This document shows positions 48,405 to 56,414 of a stretch of 64,000 nt of DNA, in pieces. The first letter of the stretch is position 1. Each line of letters opens with the position of its first letter. The notes beneath the pieces were generated by a model. The model ran no database searches. It had not been told where the DNA came from and saw only the letters and a list, made by a program, of their open reading frames with translations. The translations under genes were made by a program, and so were the position numbers. This stretch comes from Clostridia bacterium (GTDB lineage Bacteria > Bacillota > Clostridia > Christensenellales > CAG-138), in assembly GCA_017394835.1 (NCBI GenBank), contig JAFPXD010000057.1:1-64000 (forward strand), read 5' to 3'.

Positions 48405-49931
48405 TCACCTTGAGCCCCAGTATTTTTCATCAAGTCCGCGGTACTGCACCGCTTCAAGAACGTGGGACTTTGAAATAGTCTCCTCGCCCGCTATATCGGC
48501 GATCGTGCGGGCGACCTTTATGACCCTTGTATAAGCCCTTGCCGAAAGCTTGAGCCGCTCGTAAGCGGTGTGCAAAAGCTCCTCCGCATCGGGCTCCATG
48601 CGGCAGTATTTACGCATGAGAGGGGTATTGAGCTGTGAGTTGAATAGAATGCCGTCCGCTTCGTAACGCGCCTTCTGGAGCTTTCTGGCCCTTGTGACAC
48701 GCTCACGCACGGAAGCGGAGCTTTCACCCGCGGCTTTTGAGGTAAGATCGCTGAAGTTTACCTCCGTCATCTCGATATGGATATCGAGCCTGTCTAAAAG
48801 CGGGGAGCTTATCCTGTTCCTGTAACGCTCTATCTGCGCGGGCGTGCAGCGGCATTCCTTTGTTTTGGAGCCGAAATTGCCGCAGGGACAGGGATTCATA
48901 GCCGCAACGAGCATGAAATCCGCGGGGTAGGTCGTCTTTGCCGCGGCTCTCGTAATGGTAACTACGCCGTCTTCAAGGGGCTGGCGGAGCGCCTCCAAAA
49001 CGTTGGTCGGGAACTGCGGAAATTCATCCATGAACAGCACGCCGTAATGCGCGAGGCTTATCTCCCCGGGGAGGGCCTTTGAGCCTCCTCCGACGAGCGC
49101 CGGGATCGACGCGGAGTGATGCGGCGCGCGGAAGGGCCTTTCGGTGACGATGCCGCCCTTCAATTCCCCCGCTACGGAATGTATGCGGGTTATTTCAAGG
49201 GATTCCTGCATGGTGAGCTCCGGCAGTATAGAGGGGATGCTCCTTGCAAGCATGGTCTTTCCCGAACCGGGACTGCCTATCATGAGCAGATTATGATTCC
49301 CCGCGACGGCTATTTCCGCCGCGCGTTTGGCATGCTGCTGGCCCTTTATTTCCGAAAAATCATTGACGTAATGGGACTTATGCTCATGCCATTCGAGCTG
49401 AGGGAAGGGCTCTATGGGGTTAGTGCCCCTGAAATGCCCCACCGCTTCGTTAAGGTTCCTTACGGGGATCACTGTAAGCTCCGAAAAGAAGGAAGCTTCC
49501 TCCGCATTCTCATACGGGAGCATAACGTGGCGGAAGCCGCGCTCATACGCGTCTATCACCATCGGAAGGACTCCCGTAACGGAGCGCACCCTGCCGTCCA
49601 GCGCAAGCTCGCCCACGATTATGTAATCATCGGCGGCGTGGAGCGGGAATATGCCCCTTGCGGCAAGTATGCCGAGTGCGATGGGCAGATCGTAAACCGT
49701 GCCCTCCTTCTTTATATCGGCGGGAGCGAGATTGACGAGCACGCGCATTTCGGGATAGGAATAGCCGCTGTTGCAGATGGCGGAACGCACCCTCTCCTTC
49801 GACTCTTTTACGGCGTTATCGGGCAGACCGACGGTATCGACCTTCTGCATGCCGAAGGAAAGATCGACCTCCACGTTGACGGGGATGCCGTTTATTCCTA
49901 TAAGACCGTAACTGTTGAGCTTTGCGAGCAT
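48405..49931 (-). CDS. comM: ComM/YifB family Mg chelatase-like ATPase
   Basis: 508 residues. An N-terminal Lon-like domain (VDLSFGMQKVDTVGLPDNAV) precedes the AAA+ module with Walker A GSPGSGKTM (about 218-226), Walker B GVLFMDEFPQF, and a PCPCG...CRCTP zinc-like segment. The C-terminal domain ends with VARTIADIAGEETISKSHVL. ComM is a hexameric helicase that promotes branch migration in natural transformation. It lies upstream of dprA. Confidence 0.95.
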   Translation of the reverse strand: MLAKLNSYGLIGINGIPVNVEVDLSFGMQKVDTVGLPDNAVKESKERVRSAICNSGYSYPEMRVLVNLAPADIKKEGTVYDLPIALGILAARGIFPLHAADDYIIVGELALDGRVRSVTGVLPMVIDAYERGFRHVMLPYENAEEASFFSELTVIPVRNLNEAVGHFRGTNPIEPFPQLEWHEHKSHYVNDFSEIKGQQHAKRAAEIAVAGNHNLLMIGSPGSGKTMLARSIPSILPELTMQESLEITRIHSVAGELKGGIVTERPFRAPHHSASIPALVGGGSKALPGEISLAHYGVLFMDEFPQFPTNVLEALRQPLEDGVVTITRAAAKTTYPADFMLVAAMNPCPCGNFGSKTKECRCTPAQIERYRNRISSPLLDRLDIHIEMTEVNFSDLTSKAAGESSASVRERVTRARKLQKARYEADGILFNSQLNTPLMRKYCRMEPDAEELLHTAYERLKLSARAYTRVIKVARTIADIAGEETISKSHVLEAVQYRGLDEKYWGSR

Positions 49932-49934
49932 TTA

Positions 49935-50468
49935 TTATGCTTCTCCCTTCTGTTCGGTCCCCTTGAACACGAACAGCTTGTTCAGAATGAAGTTGACCGG
50001 TATGCAGATGCAGGTTGCAAGCAGTGAGCAGAACAGCTCGCCCGTTATGACCTTTGTAAGCCACGCGGGCAGCCCGAGCCCCATCCACCATTCGTTCAGA
50101 TGCATTACGTTCTTGAACAGGAATATGAGCCCGAACGATATGAGCAGCACTGCGATATTGACTGCGATGAAGCCCATTACCTCTCGCTTATCCTTACGGT
50201 GCTCCTCACGGAAGGTCCAGCGGGAATTGAGAATGTAGCTGTTCAGTATGCCGCAGCCATAACCGACCGCCTTGCAGAGATAGACTATCCAACTGCCGCT
50301 GAAAAAGAGGTTCAGAACGTAGGAAAGCCCCGTGTTCACTATCATATCGACGATCGTATTGCTTGCGCCGACTATCGCGAACTTTATGAGCTGTATAAGG
50401 CTCTTCCCCTTCTTTTTGGCGGCGGGGGCGGCGGCCGCCTCCTCCGCTTTTATGCTTTTGTTCCCCAT
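49935..50468 (-). CDS. GtrA family membrane protein
   Basis: 177 residues with four hydrophobic helices and the GtrA opening IKFAIVGASNTIVDMIVN, plus ILNSRWTFREEHR after helix 2 and NFILNKLFVFK at the end. GtrA proteins are thought to flip or handle lipid-linked sugars. A cytosolic Ala/Lys-rich N-terminus precedes helix 1. It follows the GT39-type gene after 10 bases, so the pair probably acts together in glycosylating surface polymers. Confidence 0.9.
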   Translation of the reverse strand: MGNKSIKAEEAAAAPAAKKKGKSLIQLIKFAIVGASNTIVDMIVNTGLSYVLNLFFSGSWIVYLCKAVGYGCGILNSYILNSRWTFREEHRKDKREVMGFIAVNIAVLLISFGLIFLFKNVMHLNEWWMGLGLPAWLTKVITGELFCSLLATCICIPVNFILNKLFVFKGTEQKGEA

Positions 50469-50478
50469 TTAACGCTCC

Positions 50479-53298
50479 TTAACGCTGAATTATGGTGGTG
50501 GGCGGATTTGCGGGCTCGTAGTCCAAGAAGCGCCAGCCCATCCTGTAAGTCTTTATGACCTTGCCCGCGGAATCCTGTATCTCCCACTTGTGGAAGGGCA
50601 CCCACTGCAGCGCAGCGATGTATTCCCTGGGCACTTCAAGGCCGGATATGACGGGATAGAACACTATGAAGAGCACGCCTGCGATCGCCATCCAAACGTA
50701 TTTGATCTTGCCTATATTGCCGGGCTTCAAACCCTTTTCCTCACGCTTGCAGGCGTCAACATCCTCAATATAGCCTATGAGATAGCCCGCAGCGAGGGTG
50801 ATGTAAGGCACCGTCGCAAAGAAATGATAAGCATAGGTGCTTCTCGGAACGAGCACCCACGGCAGGAACGAGGAGGCCATGCATACGAACAGGAACCACG
50901 CTTCGAGCGTGAACTTCTTCCTGTGGAATATGAGCACGAATATGAGCGCGGCGGTCGCGATCGTGCAGGCCGTCCACGTAGCGGGATTACCGAAAGTACT
51001 TATCGTTCCGACCCAGCCGTGCGGGTTGCCGTAGCCGCCCACGTAGAACCAAGTCGGGCGCAGGTCGAAGAGCCACATCCACCACGGAGAGGAAGCCGAA
51101 TGATCGGACTTCAGCTTGCTGTGGTAGTTGTACATATCCTTCTGGTTGCTTACAACGCCCTTGATGTAGGTATCGACCGCATCGCTCAAGCTGAGCTTCA
51201 CCTCATCCGCGGAGGCGTATTCGGAGGTGTTCGCCGCATAGATCTGAGCCTGACGAGCGGGCTTCCACTGAGCGGTGTAGTACCTGAAGTAGGCGGCGGA
51301 ATAGATGATGACGGGCACTATCACGAAGAATATAAGGCACCATGAGCAGAGCATGCCCGCTCTCTGCCAGAATTTCTTAACGAGCTTCGCATCATTAAAC
51401 TTCTTGAGCTTTGCGAGCTTATAGCTCTTCACGCCCATTGTTATGAGCTTTACGAAGAACAGCACCGCAAGCGCCGCGCCCGTATAGATGTCTATCCATT
51501 TCGAGGCGCAGCCCAATCCGAAGAACAGGCCGGAAAGCGCCAGCGACTTCAGCATCTTTTTGGGATCGTCCCCTATATCCATGCTGATGAAATCATACAT
51601 GAAATAGGTCATGAGCAGTATGAAGAACACGCCGTAAACGTCTATGGTCGAGATCCTCGTCTGCGTGAAATGCATGAAGTCGAACGTGAACAGGAAGGTC
51701 GAGAAGAGCGCGAGCTCCGACCTTTTTAGAAGCTTCTTGCCGAAGCAGTACATTATGGGGACCATAGCAATGCCGAACATCACGCCCATTATTCGCCAGC
51801 CGAAGGGCTTCATGCCGAATATGAGTATGCCGAGGGCGATGAAGAGCTTGCCGAGCGGCGGATGGGTCCATTCGTAAACGGTCTGATTGTTGATATGCTC
51901 CCAAGCGGTGCGGCCGTGATAGAGCTCATCGAAATACATGCCGTTCATGTAGCTGGAATAGGCGGGAACGGTACCCTGTTCGTCAACCGCAGCGGCGCCC
52001 GCGCCTTCTGCGGTCACTCCCTCAACGAGTTTGCCTTCTTCATCGAAGAATGCGATCTCAAGAAGGACAAGATCGGGATCCTTGGGTCTGCCCGTATCGC
52101 CGCCGATCACCGTGAGAGTAACGCCCGTGGTGGCCTTGGCTTTTGCCGTTTCGGACTTGTTTACGGAAGTCCAGCGGAACATGTGACCGTATTCTGCGCG
52201 TTCCTTGGAGTTGAAAGCGATCTCGTCGCCGCTGTCGGTCACTATCTTGTAATTGGTGAAGGAAATGCCGGAATTCTGCCAAATATCGGAAAGCTTTACC
52301 GATCTGCCGAATTCTATCCTGACCGAATCGCCGGTGTTAGCCGCCCAATAGCTCGTGGGGAATTTGAGGGTGCCGAGCCTGAACAGAGCGATCGCGCCGT
52401 AAACGAGGGTCAGCACGAGAACGTATATGCGGTCGCGCTTGGTGAAATGAAGCTTAATATCGGTGGGGACGGGAATTGAATCGCCGCTCATATCAAAGAA
52501 CGAACGCCCCTTTACCGCGGCCATGCCGGTGAGCTTCCTCGCCTTATCGTTTGCATAGCTTTCGGGCGCGGGTAGCGGCTTGTTTTCGCCGCTGCGGCGC
52601 TTCCTCAAAATGAAGAACACGGCGGCAGCGCAGACGGCGGCGGCGAGTATGAGCAGTATCACCGTGAGAAGCCCGCCGGAGGAGCTTTCTTTATCCTCGG
52701 TTTCGGGCTGTGTGTTCTCTTCGTAGAAGGGCATATAGTCGCCTTCGGCGTTTTCGAGCTTTTCGACTTTGAAATCATCGAACCAGGCGTCGCCGTAAGC
52801 GACGGCGCTGTAACCGCCTATGCGGCACGAAACGGTGAGCGAGGTCTGGTTGGGGCCCGTTCTGCCGGTAAGGGTCACGAGAGTCCAATCGTTATCGCCG
52901 TATATGGGATCGCTCGTGGCTATGATCTCACGCAAAGCGATGTTGGCCCCGGCGCCTTCCATGACTCCCTGAGTCTTCACCCAGCAGCTCAGCTTATAAA
53001 CGGAAAGCGGCTCAACGGGAACGGTCTGATAAACGGCGGCGTCATCACTCGAAAGTACGCTTATATGGAGCACCATGCCGCGGCCGTCCTCCACCTCGCA
53101 GTAAGCGGAGGAGTTGCCGTAGTTTTCTTTATACTCGGCTTCGTATGAATGGAAGTTCCATGCTTCGGGGAAATAATCCTCCTCCCCACAGCTTTCGAAG
53201 CCGCCGTTGATCGGGAAAGCCGCCCCTTCCGCGAATACGGGAAGGCAGATAAGAACGGCGAGCAGTATTGCCAATGTGATCGTGACAATTCTTTTCAC
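50479..53298 (-). CDS. Carbohydrate-binding/protein O-mannosyltransferase-like fusion
   Basis: 939 residues. Signal peptide 1-23; residues 30-185 form a CBM4_9-like jelly roll (FPINGGFESC, YKLSCWVKTQGVMEGAGANI, AWFDDFKVE). After one helix and a basic segment (RKRRSG) comes a GT39/PMT-type membrane enzyme of about ten helices: DELYHGRTAWEHI with the acidic first loop and EWTHPPLGKLFIALGI are typical of dolichyl or polyprenyl-phosphate mannosyltransferases. A second beta-rich module at about 310-430 precedes the acceptor loop. It would transfer a sugar from a lipid carrier to an exported protein or polymer. Length is about double a basic PMT. Confidence 0.87.
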   Translation of the reverse strand: MKRIVTITLAILLAVLICLPVFAEGAAFPINGGFESCGEEDYFPEAWNFHSYEAEYKENYGNSSAYCEVEDGRGMVLHISVLSSDDAAVYQTVPVEPLSVYKLSCWVKTQGVMEGAGANIALREIIATSDPIYGDNDWTLVTLTGRTGPNQTSLTVSCRIGGYSAVAYGDAWFDDFKVEKLENAEGDYMPFYEENTQPETEDKESSSGGLLTVILLILAAAVCAAAVFFILRKRRSGENKPLPAPESYANDKARKLTGMAAVKGRSFFDMSGDSIPVPTDIKLHFTKRDRIYVLVLTLVYGAIALFRLGTLKFPTSYWAANTGDSVRIEFGRSVKLSDIWQNSGISFTNYKIVTDSGDEIAFNSKERAEYGHMFRWTSVNKSETAKAKATTGVTLTVIGGDTGRPKDPDLVLLEIAFFDEEGKLVEGVTAEGAGAAAVDEQGTVPAYSSYMNGMYFDELYHGRTAWEHINNQTVYEWTHPPLGKLFIALGILIFGMKPFGWRIMGVMFGIAMVPIMYCFGKKLLKRSELALFSTFLFTFDFMHFTQTRISTIDVYGVFFILLMTYFMYDFISMDIGDDPKKMLKSLALSGLFFGLGCASKWIDIYTGAALAVLFFVKLITMGVKSYKLAKLKKFNDAKLVKKFWQRAGMLCSWCLIFFVIVPVIIYSAAYFRYYTAQWKPARQAQIYAANTSEYASADEVKLSLSDAVDTYIKGVVSNQKDMYNYHSKLKSDHSASSPWWMWLFDLRPTWFYVGGYGNPHGWVGTISTFGNPATWTACTIATAALIFVLIFHRKKFTLEAWFLFVCMASSFLPWVLVPRSTYAYHFFATVPYITLAAGYLIGYIEDVDACKREEKGLKPGNIGKIKYVWMAIAGVLFIVFYPVISGLEVPREYIAALQWVPFHKWEIQDSAGKVIKTYRMGWRFLDYEPANPPTTIIQR

Positions 53299-53334
53299 AG
53301 TGAGTATCCTTTCTTTGACCGGAATAAGATCGGC

Positions 53335-55338
53335 TCAGCCATTGTACCCGCGATGAGGCTTATTGCGGATAACGAGCACTAGGGTGAGCATTGTGAACCA
53401 GATAAACAGCACCACGTTTGCGAGCGAGCACCAGAATACTATCCTGTCATCCCAATAGAGGCCGTATTCAAAGAGCTTGCTGTAATAGAACGCCGATATG
53501 CAGTTGACGAGCATCGTCGCCGCATAGGCAAGATACGTGACGAGCAGACGCCTGTCGTTATAGAAGATGTAAGCGAACATTATGAGCATCAGAGCGGGGA
53601 ATATGTAACGCTCATGCATATAATGGCCGAAGGTGAATATCGAGGCGAGCATCCATGCCATCGTGAGCGGAAGCGCGCCCTTGCATTTGCCGTGACGGAG
53701 CACCGCGAAAAGGTACATCGCAATGCCGCCGACAACGGAAAGTGCCATTGCGATAGTTCCCCATTTGCCGTAGGTAAGGCCCATGAAGGGGACGTCGACC
53801 TTCTTCCAGTTGGCGCCTATGAGCGCCCAGAAATTATAGGCGTTGACGGTCGCATACTCATAGGAGGTGGCGGTGCCGTAATACTTTTCAAAGAGCCAGA
53901 ACGCGCCCTGTTCGCCCTTGAAGGGGGCGGCGACGGCGAATATGACCGCAAACGCGGCGATTACCGCAAGCACCGTTTCGAGAAGGCGGAGGCCGGGAGT
54001 ATCCTTCTTGGCCTTTATGAGCCTTGCCGTGCCGCGGTCGAGCTTTGCGGGCTCATAGGGATTGCCCTTTATGACGTACATGAGATACGCCGCCGCAAAC
54101 AGCGGCCCGCACATGAGCGCCTGCGGCTTCATAATGATGCCTATGCCGTAAACGAGGCCTGCCCAGATCGGCTTTCTCTTATACAGTAAGAGTATGGGCA
54201 CTATGAGCATCACTGTGAGCATCTGATCTATCTGCCCCCATGCGGAGGAGACGTAAGCCATTACGGGGGTGAACGCAACGAGAGTCATAAGCGCGAGCGC
54301 CGCGCCGCGGTTCATGGTCTTCCTCGCATAGCGGTAAACGAGATATGCGCAGAACAGATCCGCTATTATGCAGGGAAGCTTTATTATGAGCGAATTCGCT
54401 TCCATGCTGCCGCCGCCGAAAATATCGTTTATAAAGCTCATGGCTCCGAGCACGAGCATGTATCCGGGAGGATAATCGCACCACTCGTCATAGAAATGAG
54501 CGGGGCCCTTTGAAATAACGCGCTTGCCCCAGAATATGAAGCAGTTTATATCCGTCTTGTGTCCGTGGAAAATGAGAGACAAAGCGACCCTTACGGCAAG
54601 CGCCGCAAGAAGTATCGCTATGACGGCTATTACGTTGTCCTTTGCCTGAAGGTTCCTCGGCGAGCGGCCCTTTATGATGTGCCACGCCCATATAAGGAGA
54701 GTCAGCGCCGTCGCCAATACGGAGGCGATAAGTATGGGCTGAGTGGGGAATTCCGTGGGAGCCCCATTATCTTCAGCCGTCTTTTTCACTGCGGAGCTGC
54801 CGAGAACGGGGCCCGTGCTGCCCTTCGGGGCAAGCTCTATATTCAGCCCGTCGAAAAAGGCCTTGCCGGAGCTCGTTTCACCGTGACCGCCAACGCCGAC
54901 CGTCAAGGGAAGGGTCTCCTGCCCGGAGGCGGTGACGCCCGTAAGCTCGATAAGGGTCCAATCGGTATCGCCCGTTACGGGTTCGGAATGGAGCGCCTGG
55001 CCGTAAACGCCTATATTCGCGCCCGCGCCTCCCGTGACGCCTTCCGTTTTGACGTAGCAGGTTATGCGGTAAGCCGTTTCGGGGCTTACCTTCAGTTCCT
55101 GCATGAGGCGCACGTCGTTTTCGCTTTCGGCAAACACCTCGGCGACCGAACCGCGTACGGGATCGGTCACTATTTCAATGCTCGACCCTTCTTCAATATA
55201 GACCTTCTTCTCCCAGCCGGCGAGCCCGTTTTCGAAATCGGGGTTTGAAACGGCGGGCAGAACGGAGCCCTTCGAGCACCCGCAGAGCAGGAGAAGAGCG
55301 GCAAGAGCAAATAAAAGAATACTTTTTTTGAGTTTCAT
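53335..55338 (-). CDS. Lipoprotein-like carbohydrate-binding/GT39-type membrane glycosyltransferase fusion
   Basis: 667 residues. Signal ends at LLLCGC. Residues 30-165 are a CBM-like domain similar to the one in the neighbouring protein (NPDFENGLAGWEKKV, YRITCYVKTEGVTGGAGANI, AFFDGLNIEL). Then a helix (about 205-225) and a GT-C membrane region with INCFIFWGKRVISKGPAHF and DYPPGYMLVLGAM, typical of ArnT/PMT-like mannosyltransferases. About ten more helices follow. No lipid-carrier synthase is encoded near. It probably works with the downstream fusion and GtrA. AT-rich promoter with TATAAT at 55369-55374. Confidence 0.85.
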   Translation of the reverse strand: MKLKKSILLFALAALLLLCGCSKGSVLPAVSNPDFENGLAGWEKKVYIEEGSSIEIVTDPVRGSVAEVFAESENDVRLMQELKVSPETAYRITCYVKTEGVTGGAGANIGVYGQALHSEPVTGDTDWTLIELTGVTASGQETLPLTVGVGGHGETSSGKAFFDGLNIELAPKGSTGPVLGSSAVKKTAEDNGAPTEFPTQPILIASVLATALTLLIWAWHIIKGRSPRNLQAKDNVIAVIAILLAALAVRVALSLIFHGHKTDINCFIFWGKRVISKGPAHFYDEWCDYPPGYMLVLGAMSFINDIFGGGSMEANSLIIKLPCIIADLFCAYLVYRYARKTMNRGAALALMTLVAFTPVMAYVSSAWGQIDQMLTVMLIVPILLLYKRKPIWAGLVYGIGIIMKPQALMCGPLFAAAYLMYVIKGNPYEPAKLDRGTARLIKAKKDTPGLRLLETVLAVIAAFAVIFAVAAPFKGEQGAFWLFEKYYGTATSYEYATVNAYNFWALIGANWKKVDVPFMGLTYGKWGTIAMALSVVGGIAMYLFAVLRHGKCKGALPLTMAWMLASIFTFGHYMHERYIFPALMLIMFAYIFYNDRRLLVTYLAYAATMLVNCISAFYYSKLFEYGLYWDDRIVFWCSLANVVLFIWFTMLTLVLVIRNKPHRGYNG

Positions 55339-55393
55339 TTACACTACTCCCAGCATAAAAGTATTTTAATTATACCATATACTTACCTATATT

Positions 55394-55420
55394 AAAAGAG
55401 GCAATTTAATTTATTGCCCC
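55394..55420 (-). terminator. Terminator after yraN
   Basis: On the minus strand GGGGCAAT and ATTGCCTC pair and TTTT follows; the stem includes the yraN stop codon. It separates the housekeeping block from the glycosyltransferase unit, whose promoter starts right after it. Confidence 0.75.
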
Positions 55421-55776
55421 GAAAACGCGTTTTTTATATAGTTTATGCGGCCTTTTACGGGCACTTCGGCTATATCGAAGCGTATGATCCGCCCCTCGGC
55501 GCCGTTTTGCATGCACCAGCCCTTTGCCGCCTGAATTACGTTATACCGCTTCTTCTCCGTAACGGACGCCTGCGGCGCGACGCTCATATCGGCCCTTGTC
55601 TTTACCTCCACGAAAGCGATCACGCTCCCCTTTGAGGCGATTATATCTATCTCCTTATGCCCGAAGGTGTAATTCCTTTCGAGTATCCTGTAACCGCGCA
55701 GCATCAGGTAAAACGCGGTGCGGCGTTCGCCCCTGTCGCCTGTCCTGCGCTGCTTCGTCTTGCGGGGTCTGCTCAT
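55411..55776 (-). CDS. yraN: YraN/UPF0102 endonuclease-like protein
   Basis: 121 residues. RTGDRGERRTAFYLMLRGY, then NYTFGHKEIDIIASKGSVIAFVEVKTR: the GEIDLI-like and EVKTR residues are the PD-(D/E)XK catalytic pattern. YraN is a widespread nuclease-fold protein of unclear role, commonly beside rnhB. It overlaps rnhB by 4 bases (ATGA). Confidence 0.93.
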   Translation of the reverse strand: MSRPRKTKQRRTGDRGERRTAFYLMLRGYRILERNYTFGHKEIDIIASKGSVIAFVEVKTRADMSVAPQASVTEKKRYNVIQAAKGWCMQNGAEGRIIRFDIAEVPVKGRINYIKNAFSGQ

Positions 55777-56414
55777 TGCGGCAAGCCCTCCGGAAAGAAG
55801 TTTTTTATAAAGCTCCTTCTGTGGATGGGACAGGGCCCCAGCTCCTTTAGCGCGGCGATATGCTCCGCAGTGCCGTATCCCTTGTTTTTGGCAAAGCCGT
55901 AACCGGGATAGAGCTCGTCCATCTTTACCATGAACCTGTCCCTCCTGACCTTTGCCATTATGGAGGCGCAGGCGATCGTATAGGAAAGCGCGTCGCCATG
56001 GATGAGCGGGATGCGGCGGGGCGGGATCTCCAGCCCTTCGACCGCGTCTATGAGCGCTGCGTCCGCCGGAACGCCCATATCGAAATACGCATCGCGGAAC
56101 GCTTCCTTGGTGGCGTTCAGGATGTTGATCTCATCTATTCGCGCCTCGTTCCTTATTCCGAAGCCGATCGCCGCAGCGCCGGCGCTTATCTCATCAAAGA
56201 GCCTTTCGCGCTTCTTTTCGGCGAGCTTTTTGGAATCGTTCACGCCCTCTATAAGAGGCTCCCGGGGCATTATGAGACAGCATACCACAACGGGCCCCGC
56301 AAGAGGGCCTCTGCCGACTTCATCCATGCCGCAGACCGTAAGCCCCTCTTCCCAAAGCTCCCGTTCATAGCGCGTCAGCTCGAAAAGACGCTCCTGTTCG
56401 TTACGCCTTGCCAT
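55773..56414 (-). CDS. rnhB: Ribonuclease HII
   Basis: 213 residues from ATG 56414, overlapping rbgA by 14 bases; the frame extends to 56591 within rbgA. The catalytic core GMDEVGRGPLAGPVVV gives the Asp-Glu pair; LIDAVEG and HGDALSYTIACASIMAKVRRD follow. It removes misincorporated ribonucleotides and RNA primers. The rbgA-rnhB-yraN order is the usual one in Firmicutes. Confidence 0.97.
   Translation of the reverse strand: MARRNEQERLFELTRYERELWEEGLTVCGMDEVGRGPLAGPVVVCCLIMPREPLIEGVNDSKKLAEKKRERLFDEISAGAAAIGFGIRNEARIDEINILNATKEAFRDAYFDMGVPADAALIDAVEGLEIPPRRIPLIHGDALSYTIACASIMAKVRRDRFMVKMDELYPGYGFAKNKGYGTAEHIAALKELGPCPIHRRSFIKNFFPEGLPQ

Follow-up and report, generated by a model that had tools for sequence, protein, structure and literature searches.

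Two neighbouring membrane glycosyltransferases of a Clostridia genome as the split form of a widespread double enzyme, with a possible role in two-step protein O-glycosylation

This work concerns two neighbouring genes for membrane glycosyltransferases, here called A and B, and the GtrA-family gene that follows them, in a Clostridia bacterium (GTDB lineage Bacteria; Bacillota; Clostridia; Christensenellales; CAG-138). They lie within positions 1 to 64,000 of contig JAFPXD010000057.1 in assembly GCA_017394835.1, a stretch of 64,000 nucleotides referred to below as the window. Comparison of the proteins with those of related genomes indicates that A and B correspond, as separate proteins, to the two halves of an enzyme which most of the relatives examined make as a single chain, and that the split and fused forms share a common ancestry. 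A first-pass annotation, made from the DNA letters alone, had described the pair as twin enzymes inserted in a housekeeping block; that it is the split form of a widespread double enzyme is what the present analysis adds. We hold this account of the anatomy and history of the locus with high confidence. More tentatively, we propose that many Clostridia possess a tandem O-glycosyltransferase of an initiate-and-extend type, with two active cores of the glycosyltransferase C fold (GT-C), a carbohydrate-binding module (CBM) in the place of the MIR domain, and recurrent splits; equally tentatively, and jointly with that proposal, the enzyme of the window's genus may be divided into two subunits, each with a CBM in most genomes. 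The features on which the argument rests are the following (residues in amino acids, aa; PMT, protein O-mannosyltransferase).

53335-55338, minus strand: gene of protein A, 667 aa, predicted to comprise a signal- or lipoprotein-like N-terminus, a CBM-fold domain (about residues 32-168), a transmembrane helix and a GT-C module (about residues 201-660)
54811-55260, minus strand: CBM-fold domain of A as aligned, its fold assigned by homology to the B domain
50479-53298, minus strand: gene of protein B, 939 aa, with a GTG start, predicted to comprise a signal peptide, a CBM-fold domain (about residues 31-182), a transmembrane helix (204-235) and a PMT-type GT-C module (about residues 286-901)
52729-53223, minus strand: CBM-fold domain of B, modelled alone
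51958-52365, minus strand: beta domain of B, which precedes the DE motif and lies within the first outer loop of the PMT module

Relatives of B were found in 78 of 101 related genomes and relatives of A in 86 of the 101, many of the latter weak. Regions around the locus were fetched and annotated with profiles for 72 genomes, which together with the window represent 73 of the 75 genomes with strong matches, G051 and G088 being left out. In 41 of these 73 genomes, all from the order, the two modules are joined in a single chain, mostly in the same slot between yraN and comM that the pair occupies in the window; the commonest arrangement is CBM-A-B (38/73), and three chains are A-B with no CBM detected. 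The split forms comprise CBM-A with CBM-B (12), CBM-A with B (11), A with CBM-B (6) and A with B (1), and there remain one region with B and no A (L147) and one with only CBM-A before the contig ends. In reading these numbers, B is cut by a contig end in L084 and L139, L118 ends before any B, L103, L131 and L141 are also cut, and a diverged CBM was possibly missed in L141; L112 and L100, which repeat L035 and L037, are kept in the count of 73 and left out of the alignments and trees. Fused chains are present in 16 of the 19 families represented in the order, the window's genus shows the split form in each of its 11 fetched members, and wherever the order's fetched regions hold a split pair, its two genes adjoin. 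Fused chains of about 1600 aa were observed in L133 and L146 (G071 and G098, of the same family), where some 300 additional residues surround the point at which the B module begins.

The tandem chain is also found well outside the order, and the slot between yraN and comM was seen only inside it. Of 291 genomes sampled from the class, among them a few from the window's order, 112 had a match at 1e-20. The 30 best class loci were picked by their match to a fused query and are hence biased towards fused chains; 27 of them lie outside the order, and in all 27 both modules stand on one open frame. No CBM was detected in these 27 loci, nor was yraN or comM found within their flanks of about 1.5 kb. 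A frames that match the CBM part of the query do occur in class genomes outside the order, for example in G273, G334, G203, G293, G200 and G107, and a 1313-aa frame of G145 likewise matches it.

It is quite improbable, in our judgement, that A and B are independent enzymes that happen to be adjacent. Such independence would suit the occurrence of B without A, in L147 and in Acetivibrio-type loci, where a CBM-only protein accompanies CBM-B, and it would suit at least 13 class genomes in which A-like and B-like matches lie on different contigs, so that the two need not be neighbours. Against it stand the single chain, which occurs in 41 of the 73 genomes and in further loci throughout the class, the adjacency of the split pairs in the order, and the near-invariance of the catalytic residues, by which neither module of the fused chain looks dead. 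A dead partner subunit was rejected on this same ground.

The phylogenies are consistent with splitting on more than one occasion. In the CBM tree, whose deep branches are weak, the A copies and the B copies from the window's clade each form a well-supported group (100/92 and 100/95), and these two groups are sisters (90/80). In L088 (99/92) and L106 (90/88) the locus's own A and B copies are mutually nearest, and in the Acetivibrio-type loci the CBM of the CBM-only membrane protein groups with that of the PMT (93/95). In a tree of the B module, made quickly and with no bootstrap, the fused and split states require five changes, and a fused form is the partner of L088 as well as of L106 (SH-like approximate likelihood-ratio test, 97 and 99). 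To call these changes splits presupposes a fused ancestor; given such an ancestor, splitting would have recurred, with a CBM on both halves in three split lines. Double-CBM splits of this kind would arise if a whole gene was duplicated and the two copies then lost complementary parts, which was probably the step involved.

The two catalytic modules differ in type. Besides a weak CBM match, the only Pfam matches in A are PMT_2, above its cut-off (32.5 bits against 26.1), and GT87, barely above (25.9 bits against 25); GT87 is matched at E 0.01 in 28 of 38 fused relatives, and neither PF02366 (PMT) nor PF16192 (PMT_4TMC) matches A at E 1. A search of the PDB sequences with the whole of A found nothing. 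The residues D263, W270, Q369, D371, K404, Q406, H575, R577 and Y578 are present in 75 of 75 A sequences, and the motifs of the module (D263, W270, DYPPGY, Q369, D371, K404, Q406 and HERY at 575-578) are each kept in 68 to 75 of the 75. To assess the fold of A and of the PMT part of B, a model was used not of the window proteins but of L096, a fused relative of 1192 aa from genome G024; the model has a mean predicted local distance difference test score (pLDDT) of 87.1 and a predicted template modelling score (pTM) of 0.53. In this model the A module resembles ALG6 (Z 25.4), ALG3 (24.9), GPI mannosyltransferase I (24.0) and PimE (19.3). The A-type module, as modelled, is an ALG6/ALG3/PimE-like GT-C and not of the PMT type. 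It is likened to these enzymes (GT87 and relatives) by the GT87 match and by the fold of the homologous module, and differs from them in carrying or sharing a CBM-fold domain and in being paired with or fused to a PMT. ALG6-type enzymes act on glycans, and from the fold neighbours only we infer that A transfers a sugar to a glycan acceptor. Lipoprotein anchoring of A, suggested by its N-terminus, was rejected as a general feature since a lipobox-like motif occurs in only part of the proteins (11 of 24 CBM-bearing A, 2 of 25 B, 9 of 41 fused chains and 0 of 5 CBM-only proteins).

Protein B scores above the cut-offs for Pfam PMT (55.5 bits against 22.7), PMT_4TMC (65.2 bits against 32.4) and PMT_2 (50.8 bits), and PMT and PMT_4TMC also score in 38 of 38 fused relatives. 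Against the NCBIfam equivalog for protein O-mannosyltransferase, NF058602, B reaches 91.8 bits with a cut-off of 800, which makes it related to that equivalog but not a member. The residues D457 and E458 (the DE motif of PMTs), H479, R548, D553, K600, W601, H726 and R819 are present in 76 of 76 B sequences, and the R-x2-Y motif is read as R819-Y822. The B module of the L096 model matches Pmt4 with Z 37.1 over 421 residues and Pmt2 with Z 36.3, the latter being chain B of the Pmt1-Pmt2 entry 6p25, which we take to be Pmt2; a PDB sequence search with the whole of B gave a single weak match, to Pmt4 (E 0.028). The DE motif of PMTs belongs to the first outer loop and the R-x2-Y/F motif is close to the active site, and in mycobacterial PMT the aspartate of the DE motif, D74, and also D176, R441 and Y444 are described as functionally important (PMC12331936). 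B therefore shares with the PMTs (CAZy GT39; yeast Pmt1, Pmt2 and Pmt4, mycobacterial PMT) the PMT and PMT_4TMC domains, the DE and R-x2-Y motifs and the module fold, whereas it lacks a Pfam MIR domain, carries an N-terminal CBM-fold domain and a beta domain in its first loop, and is paired with or fused to a second GT-C. The loop domain of the window's B has no Pfam match itself; F5_F8_type_C is matched at E 0.05 or better in this domain in 16 of 73 B homologues, and the profile of the loop domain finds 4a42 (E 1.9e-4), presumably a CBM32, which is one module from an alpha-N-acetylglucosaminidase. Taken together, these features make B a likely protein O-glycosyltransferase.

The catalytic parts of A and B show no significant similarity to each other in BLASTP (best E 0.64). 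Their profiles reach a profile-profile probability of 40% and cross-match at E 1e-3, as expected for two GT-C enzymes. The first-pass view of the pair as GT39 twins was rejected on these grounds: only B is of the PMT type, and A, with its ALG6/ALG3/PimE-like module, lacks the PMT domains. The duplication that it had read from the shared N-terminal domain holds for the CBM-fold domains, which are sister groups in the tree and are 39% identical over 107 aa (E 4e-27), and does not extend to the whole proteins, whose catalytic parts are dissimilar.

That the N-terminal domains are of a carbohydrate-binding type and fused to a GT-C, as first suggested, is borne out at the level of fold, and the shared motifs are present as described (GAGANI in both proteins, FFDG in A and WFDDF in B). 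In an alignment of 91 such domains from the window and its relatives, tested singly, CBM_4_9_1 is matched at E 0.1 or better by 53 and CBM_4_9 by 46. The window's own scores stay below the cut-offs: for CBM_4_9_1 (cut-off 27) the whole of B reaches 16.3 bits, the whole of A 12.3 and the B domain alone 19.4, and for CBM_4_9 (cut-off 25.9) the B domain alone reaches 14.3. The profile of the domains matches in the PDB 4d0q (E 6e-11), the hyaluronan-binding module of a pneumococcal hyaluronate lyase, which we take to be a CBM70. Modelling of the B domain, part of the check that had been recommended at the outset, gave with AlphaFold2 a CBM beta-sandwich of mean pLDDT 94.8, whose best structural match is again 4d0q (Z 18.8, root-mean-square deviation 2.5 over 149 residues), followed at Z 13-15 by entries of CBM16, CBM4 and CBM61 among others. 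Profiles and model thus agree that the N-terminal domains have the CBM beta-sandwich fold. The likeness to the 4d0q module is one of best profile and structure match; the identity is 17-19%, and any ligand is putative.

Whether the fold signifies working carbohydrate binding appears to us evenly balanced on the modelled evidence. HpiC1-type cyclases, which are not known to bind sugars, and pesticidal-protein domains are also among the structural matches of the B domain, and the fold alone is therefore no proof of binding. The domain might instead serve a structural or protein-docking role, holding the two halves or the acceptor, which would be compatible with either function considered below. 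Besides the presence of the fold in cyclases, this is favoured by the finding that all 28 fetched split pairs of the window's family keep at least one CBM, and by our judgement that the near-invariant residues of the domain (W22, Y76, G136, G144, F9, D61, V70, G92, A93, W113 and F148) may be fold-forming. However, the best sequence and structure matches are binding modules (4d0q, CBM4, CBM16 and CBM61), and the two CBM profiles are matched by 53 and 46 of the 91 members; we consider a docking role rather doubtful.

The supply of a donor sugar may be provided by GtrA together with a GtrB-type synthase. The window's GtrA scores 89 bits against PF04138 (cut-off 26.1) and begins 10 bp after B. As to the trio of A, B and GtrA, which the first-pass annotation had suggested seeking in other Clostridia, a GtrA domain is indeed present in the fetched region of 50 of the 73 genomes, but the commonest state in the order is one CBM-A-B chain; in the class, GtrA stands beside the tandem gene in 4 of the 27 loci. 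PF00535 (GT2), the sole GT2 model searched, has four matches in the window genome, one of them a GtrB-type synthase of 310 aa encoded on contig C31; its best NCBIfam match is PgfS, at 242.7 bits with a cut-off of 500, so that it is not that equivalog. Of 75 genomes that carry the locus, 67 have a GtrB homologue at the 1e-40 threshold, against 5 of the 26 that lack it. The locus was counted as present given a strong match (A at 1e-25 or B at 1e-40), so that the genomes counted as lacking it include twelve whose A-type matches are weaker and three whose B-type matches are weak, with one genome in both groups. Outside the window's family the numbers are 19 of 21 against 1 of 19, and when each of these other families contributes a single genome they become 16 of 18 against 1 of 14 (Fisher p 5e-6, deeper kinship ignored). 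In addition, 6 of the 27 class loci and 4 of 5 Acetivibrio-type loci have a GtrB homologue of 44-50% identity next to them; the fifth of the latter, L042, is cut by a contig end and holds only a more distant GtrB. In L040, 10 bp separate the CBM-PMT gene from the GtrB gene behind it, whose product shares 48% identity with the GtrB of the window genome. In Acetivibrio mesophilus (L038), the order of genes is GT2, a small membrane protein, GtrA, a GtrB-type gene (33% identity), the CBM-only protein, CBM-PMT and a closer GtrB.

The Acetivibrio-type operon is an observation in its own right (L038:4798-12689, L040:5655-12682 and L044:5253-12938). It combines GtrA, two GtrB-type genes, a CBM-only single-pass protein and a CBM-PMT; it contains no A module, and GtrA was not found in L040.

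Based on these findings, we propose, as somewhat probable, that A and B together with GtrB and GtrA carry out a two-step O-glycosylation of secreted or surface proteins. First, the GtrB-type enzyme, encoded elsewhere in the genome, would make a polyprenyl-phosphate sugar, which GtrA would flip. B would then move the flipped sugar onto Ser or Thr of a surface protein, and A would add a further sugar to the product of B. Meanwhile, the CBM-fold domain would hold a glycan, a glycosylated linker or the wall near the active sites, and the F5/8-like loop domain of B may perhaps also hold a glycan, as the MIR domain may in eukaryotic PMTs. The initiate-and-extend order is drawn from the fact that PMTs act on proteins and A-type enzymes on glycans; for A itself, the role of extender is about an even bet. 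We infer the acceptor protein, the order of the steps, the identity of the sugar and the carbohydrate binding. The comparison with the MIR domain is prompted by yeast PMT, in which this domain binds mannose and affects processivity (PMC7759382).

The main rival to this proposal is wall-polymer decoration, by which A and B would add side sugars to a teichoic-acid-like or other wall polymer that the CBM binds. GtrA, GtrB and a GT-C are the classical parts of three-component systems, the A module is of the ALG6/PimE-like kind that uses a glycan acceptor, and CBM-bearing GT-Cs that act on polysaccharides are known, namely GT136 ORF12, EmbA/B/C and AftD (PMC11127046). The resemblance to the three-component systems, including GT136 ORF12, extends to a putative flippase, a lipid-sugar synthase, a GT-C and a CBM on it; here, however, GtrB is unlinked, and two different GT-C modules stand together, one of them PMT-like. 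Against the rival, B has the DE motif, PMT_4TMC and R-x2-Y of the PMTs, whose substrates are proteins, and the closest case with experimental data, a clostridial GT39 whose loop resembles a CBM, modifies secreted proteins (PMC6151902). We regard wall-polymer decoration as unlikely, more so than the docking role of the N-terminal domain.

That experimental case is Cbes_1864 of C. bescii, a GT39 for which a signal peptide is predicted and whose first loop, or N-terminal region, is described as CBM-like; its deletion abolished detectable protein glycosylation (PMC6151902). By its authors' description it is like B in being a GT39 with a CBM-like region, and it differs in having 556 aa and one GT-C part. 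A second comparison is the Pgf system of S. mutans (PgfS, PgfM1, PgfE and PgfM2), in which PgfS (GT2) with PgfM1 (of the PMT_2 type) and the related PgfM2 modify surface proteins; its authors propose a stepwise action, with PgfM1 early and PgfM2 adding the last GlcNAc (PMC5856776). The likeness lies in one GT2 and two related multi-pass membrane proteins, while the two membrane proteins of that system are separate genes, the excerpted report mentions no CBM, and the GtrB of the window genome falls below the PgfS cut-off. Among the open-licence papers covered, we found no two-core GT-C chain, no such CBM on one and no account of its splitting.

Candidate acceptors may be sought among the dockerin proteins of the window genome, a 71-contig assembly in which single contigs could be misplaced. 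This genome has 43 dockerin matches, 42 of them above the cut-off, and 11 cohesin matches, 10 of them above it. A stretch with at least 18 Ser, Thr or Pro in 30 residues occurs in 3 of 28 distinct dockerin proteins on the fetched stretches, two of which have long Thr-Pro repeats, and three more reach 16 or 17 in 30, one with a Pro-Thr-Glu repeat. The Thr-Pro linkers of CelA in C. bescii are predicted O-glycosylation regions (PMC6151902). The link between the dockerin linkers and glycosylation is circumstantial. S-layer proteins with SLH domains were rejected as acceptors, the window genome having no SLH match. As a separate observation, the genome holds a cellulosome-like repertoire, for example at C22:12613-16149, C59:1880-12321, C36:40475-48165 and C45:22320-28255.

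Several observations weigh against the proposed two-step function, in addition to the separate contigs and the non-binding relatives of the CBM fold described above. No GtrA was found in 23 of the 73 regions, some of which are cut by contig ends, and GtrB, unlinked in the window genome, was not found in any of the order's 72 fetched regions. At the threshold, GtrB has no match in 8 of the 75 locus-bearing genomes and has one in 5 of the 26 locus-free ones, and it would therefore also serve other systems. The existence of A-B chains with no detected CBM implies that the module is dispensable in some lineages, and the placement of A relative to B in the fused model is unreliable (pTM 0.53). Among the dockerin proteins, 25 of 28 never reach 18 of 30. 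Finally, the S. mutans authors state that PgfM1 is not predicted to be enzymatic (PMC5856776).

If the proposed model is true, a widespread clostridial enzyme would carry out two consecutive glycosylations within a single chain. This would help in finding out which glycans these bacteria place on their surface and dockerin-type proteins, and would make surface protein glycosylation in them directly testable. Additionally, the natural fused, split, CBM-less and CBM-doubled forms are ready variants for the role of a binding module on a membrane glycosyltransferase, a question likewise raised for the MIR domain of yeast PMT (PMC7759382) and for the CBMs of EmbC and GT136 ORF12 (PMC11127046).

The remaining features of the locus are:

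55411-55776, minus strand: yraN, upstream flank of A, a name given by both the first-pass annotation and this analysis and in agreement with synteny
49935-50468, minus strand: gtrA, 177 aa, a GtrA-family membrane protein
48405-49931, minus strand: comM, downstream flank of gtrA, a name in agreement with synteny

The first-pass annotation had thus been exact in its coordinates for two membrane glycosyltransferases with related N-terminal domains, followed by GtrA, between yraN and comM. The intergenic gaps measure 72 bp between yraN and A (55339-55410, minus strand), 36 bp between A and B, 10 bp between B and gtrA, and 3 bp between gtrA and comM. Scans of 49800-55800 for promoter-like matches (4, with 4.2 expected from shuffled sequence) and terminator-like matches (6, with 6.1 expected) gave no excess and were left unused. 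The view of the genes as "inserted" by a local event was not upheld: in 53 of the 73 genomes of the order the locus is preceded by yraN and followed by comM at a distance of up to 1200 bp, and at least one of the two genes is present in 68 of 73, several of the exceptions being contig ends. A recent local insertion was rejected because of this order-wide occurrence of the slot.

Some minor observations concern single loci. The A gene of L036 (6174-7830) and the PMT gene of L044 (9033-11938) each stand in two frames, through either sequencing error or breakage. In the window genome, a GT2-GtrA fusion of 373 aa lies directly after genes that by eye are mreC-, mreD- and PBP2-like (L148:6697-7818; G000:C62), and homologues of it at 1e-25 occur in 60 of the 101 genomes. 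A second stand-alone GtrA gene (L149:7098-9790; G000:C22) lies directly before the gene of a 733-aa protein that by eye combines a CotH kinase and a binding domain, with a dockerin.

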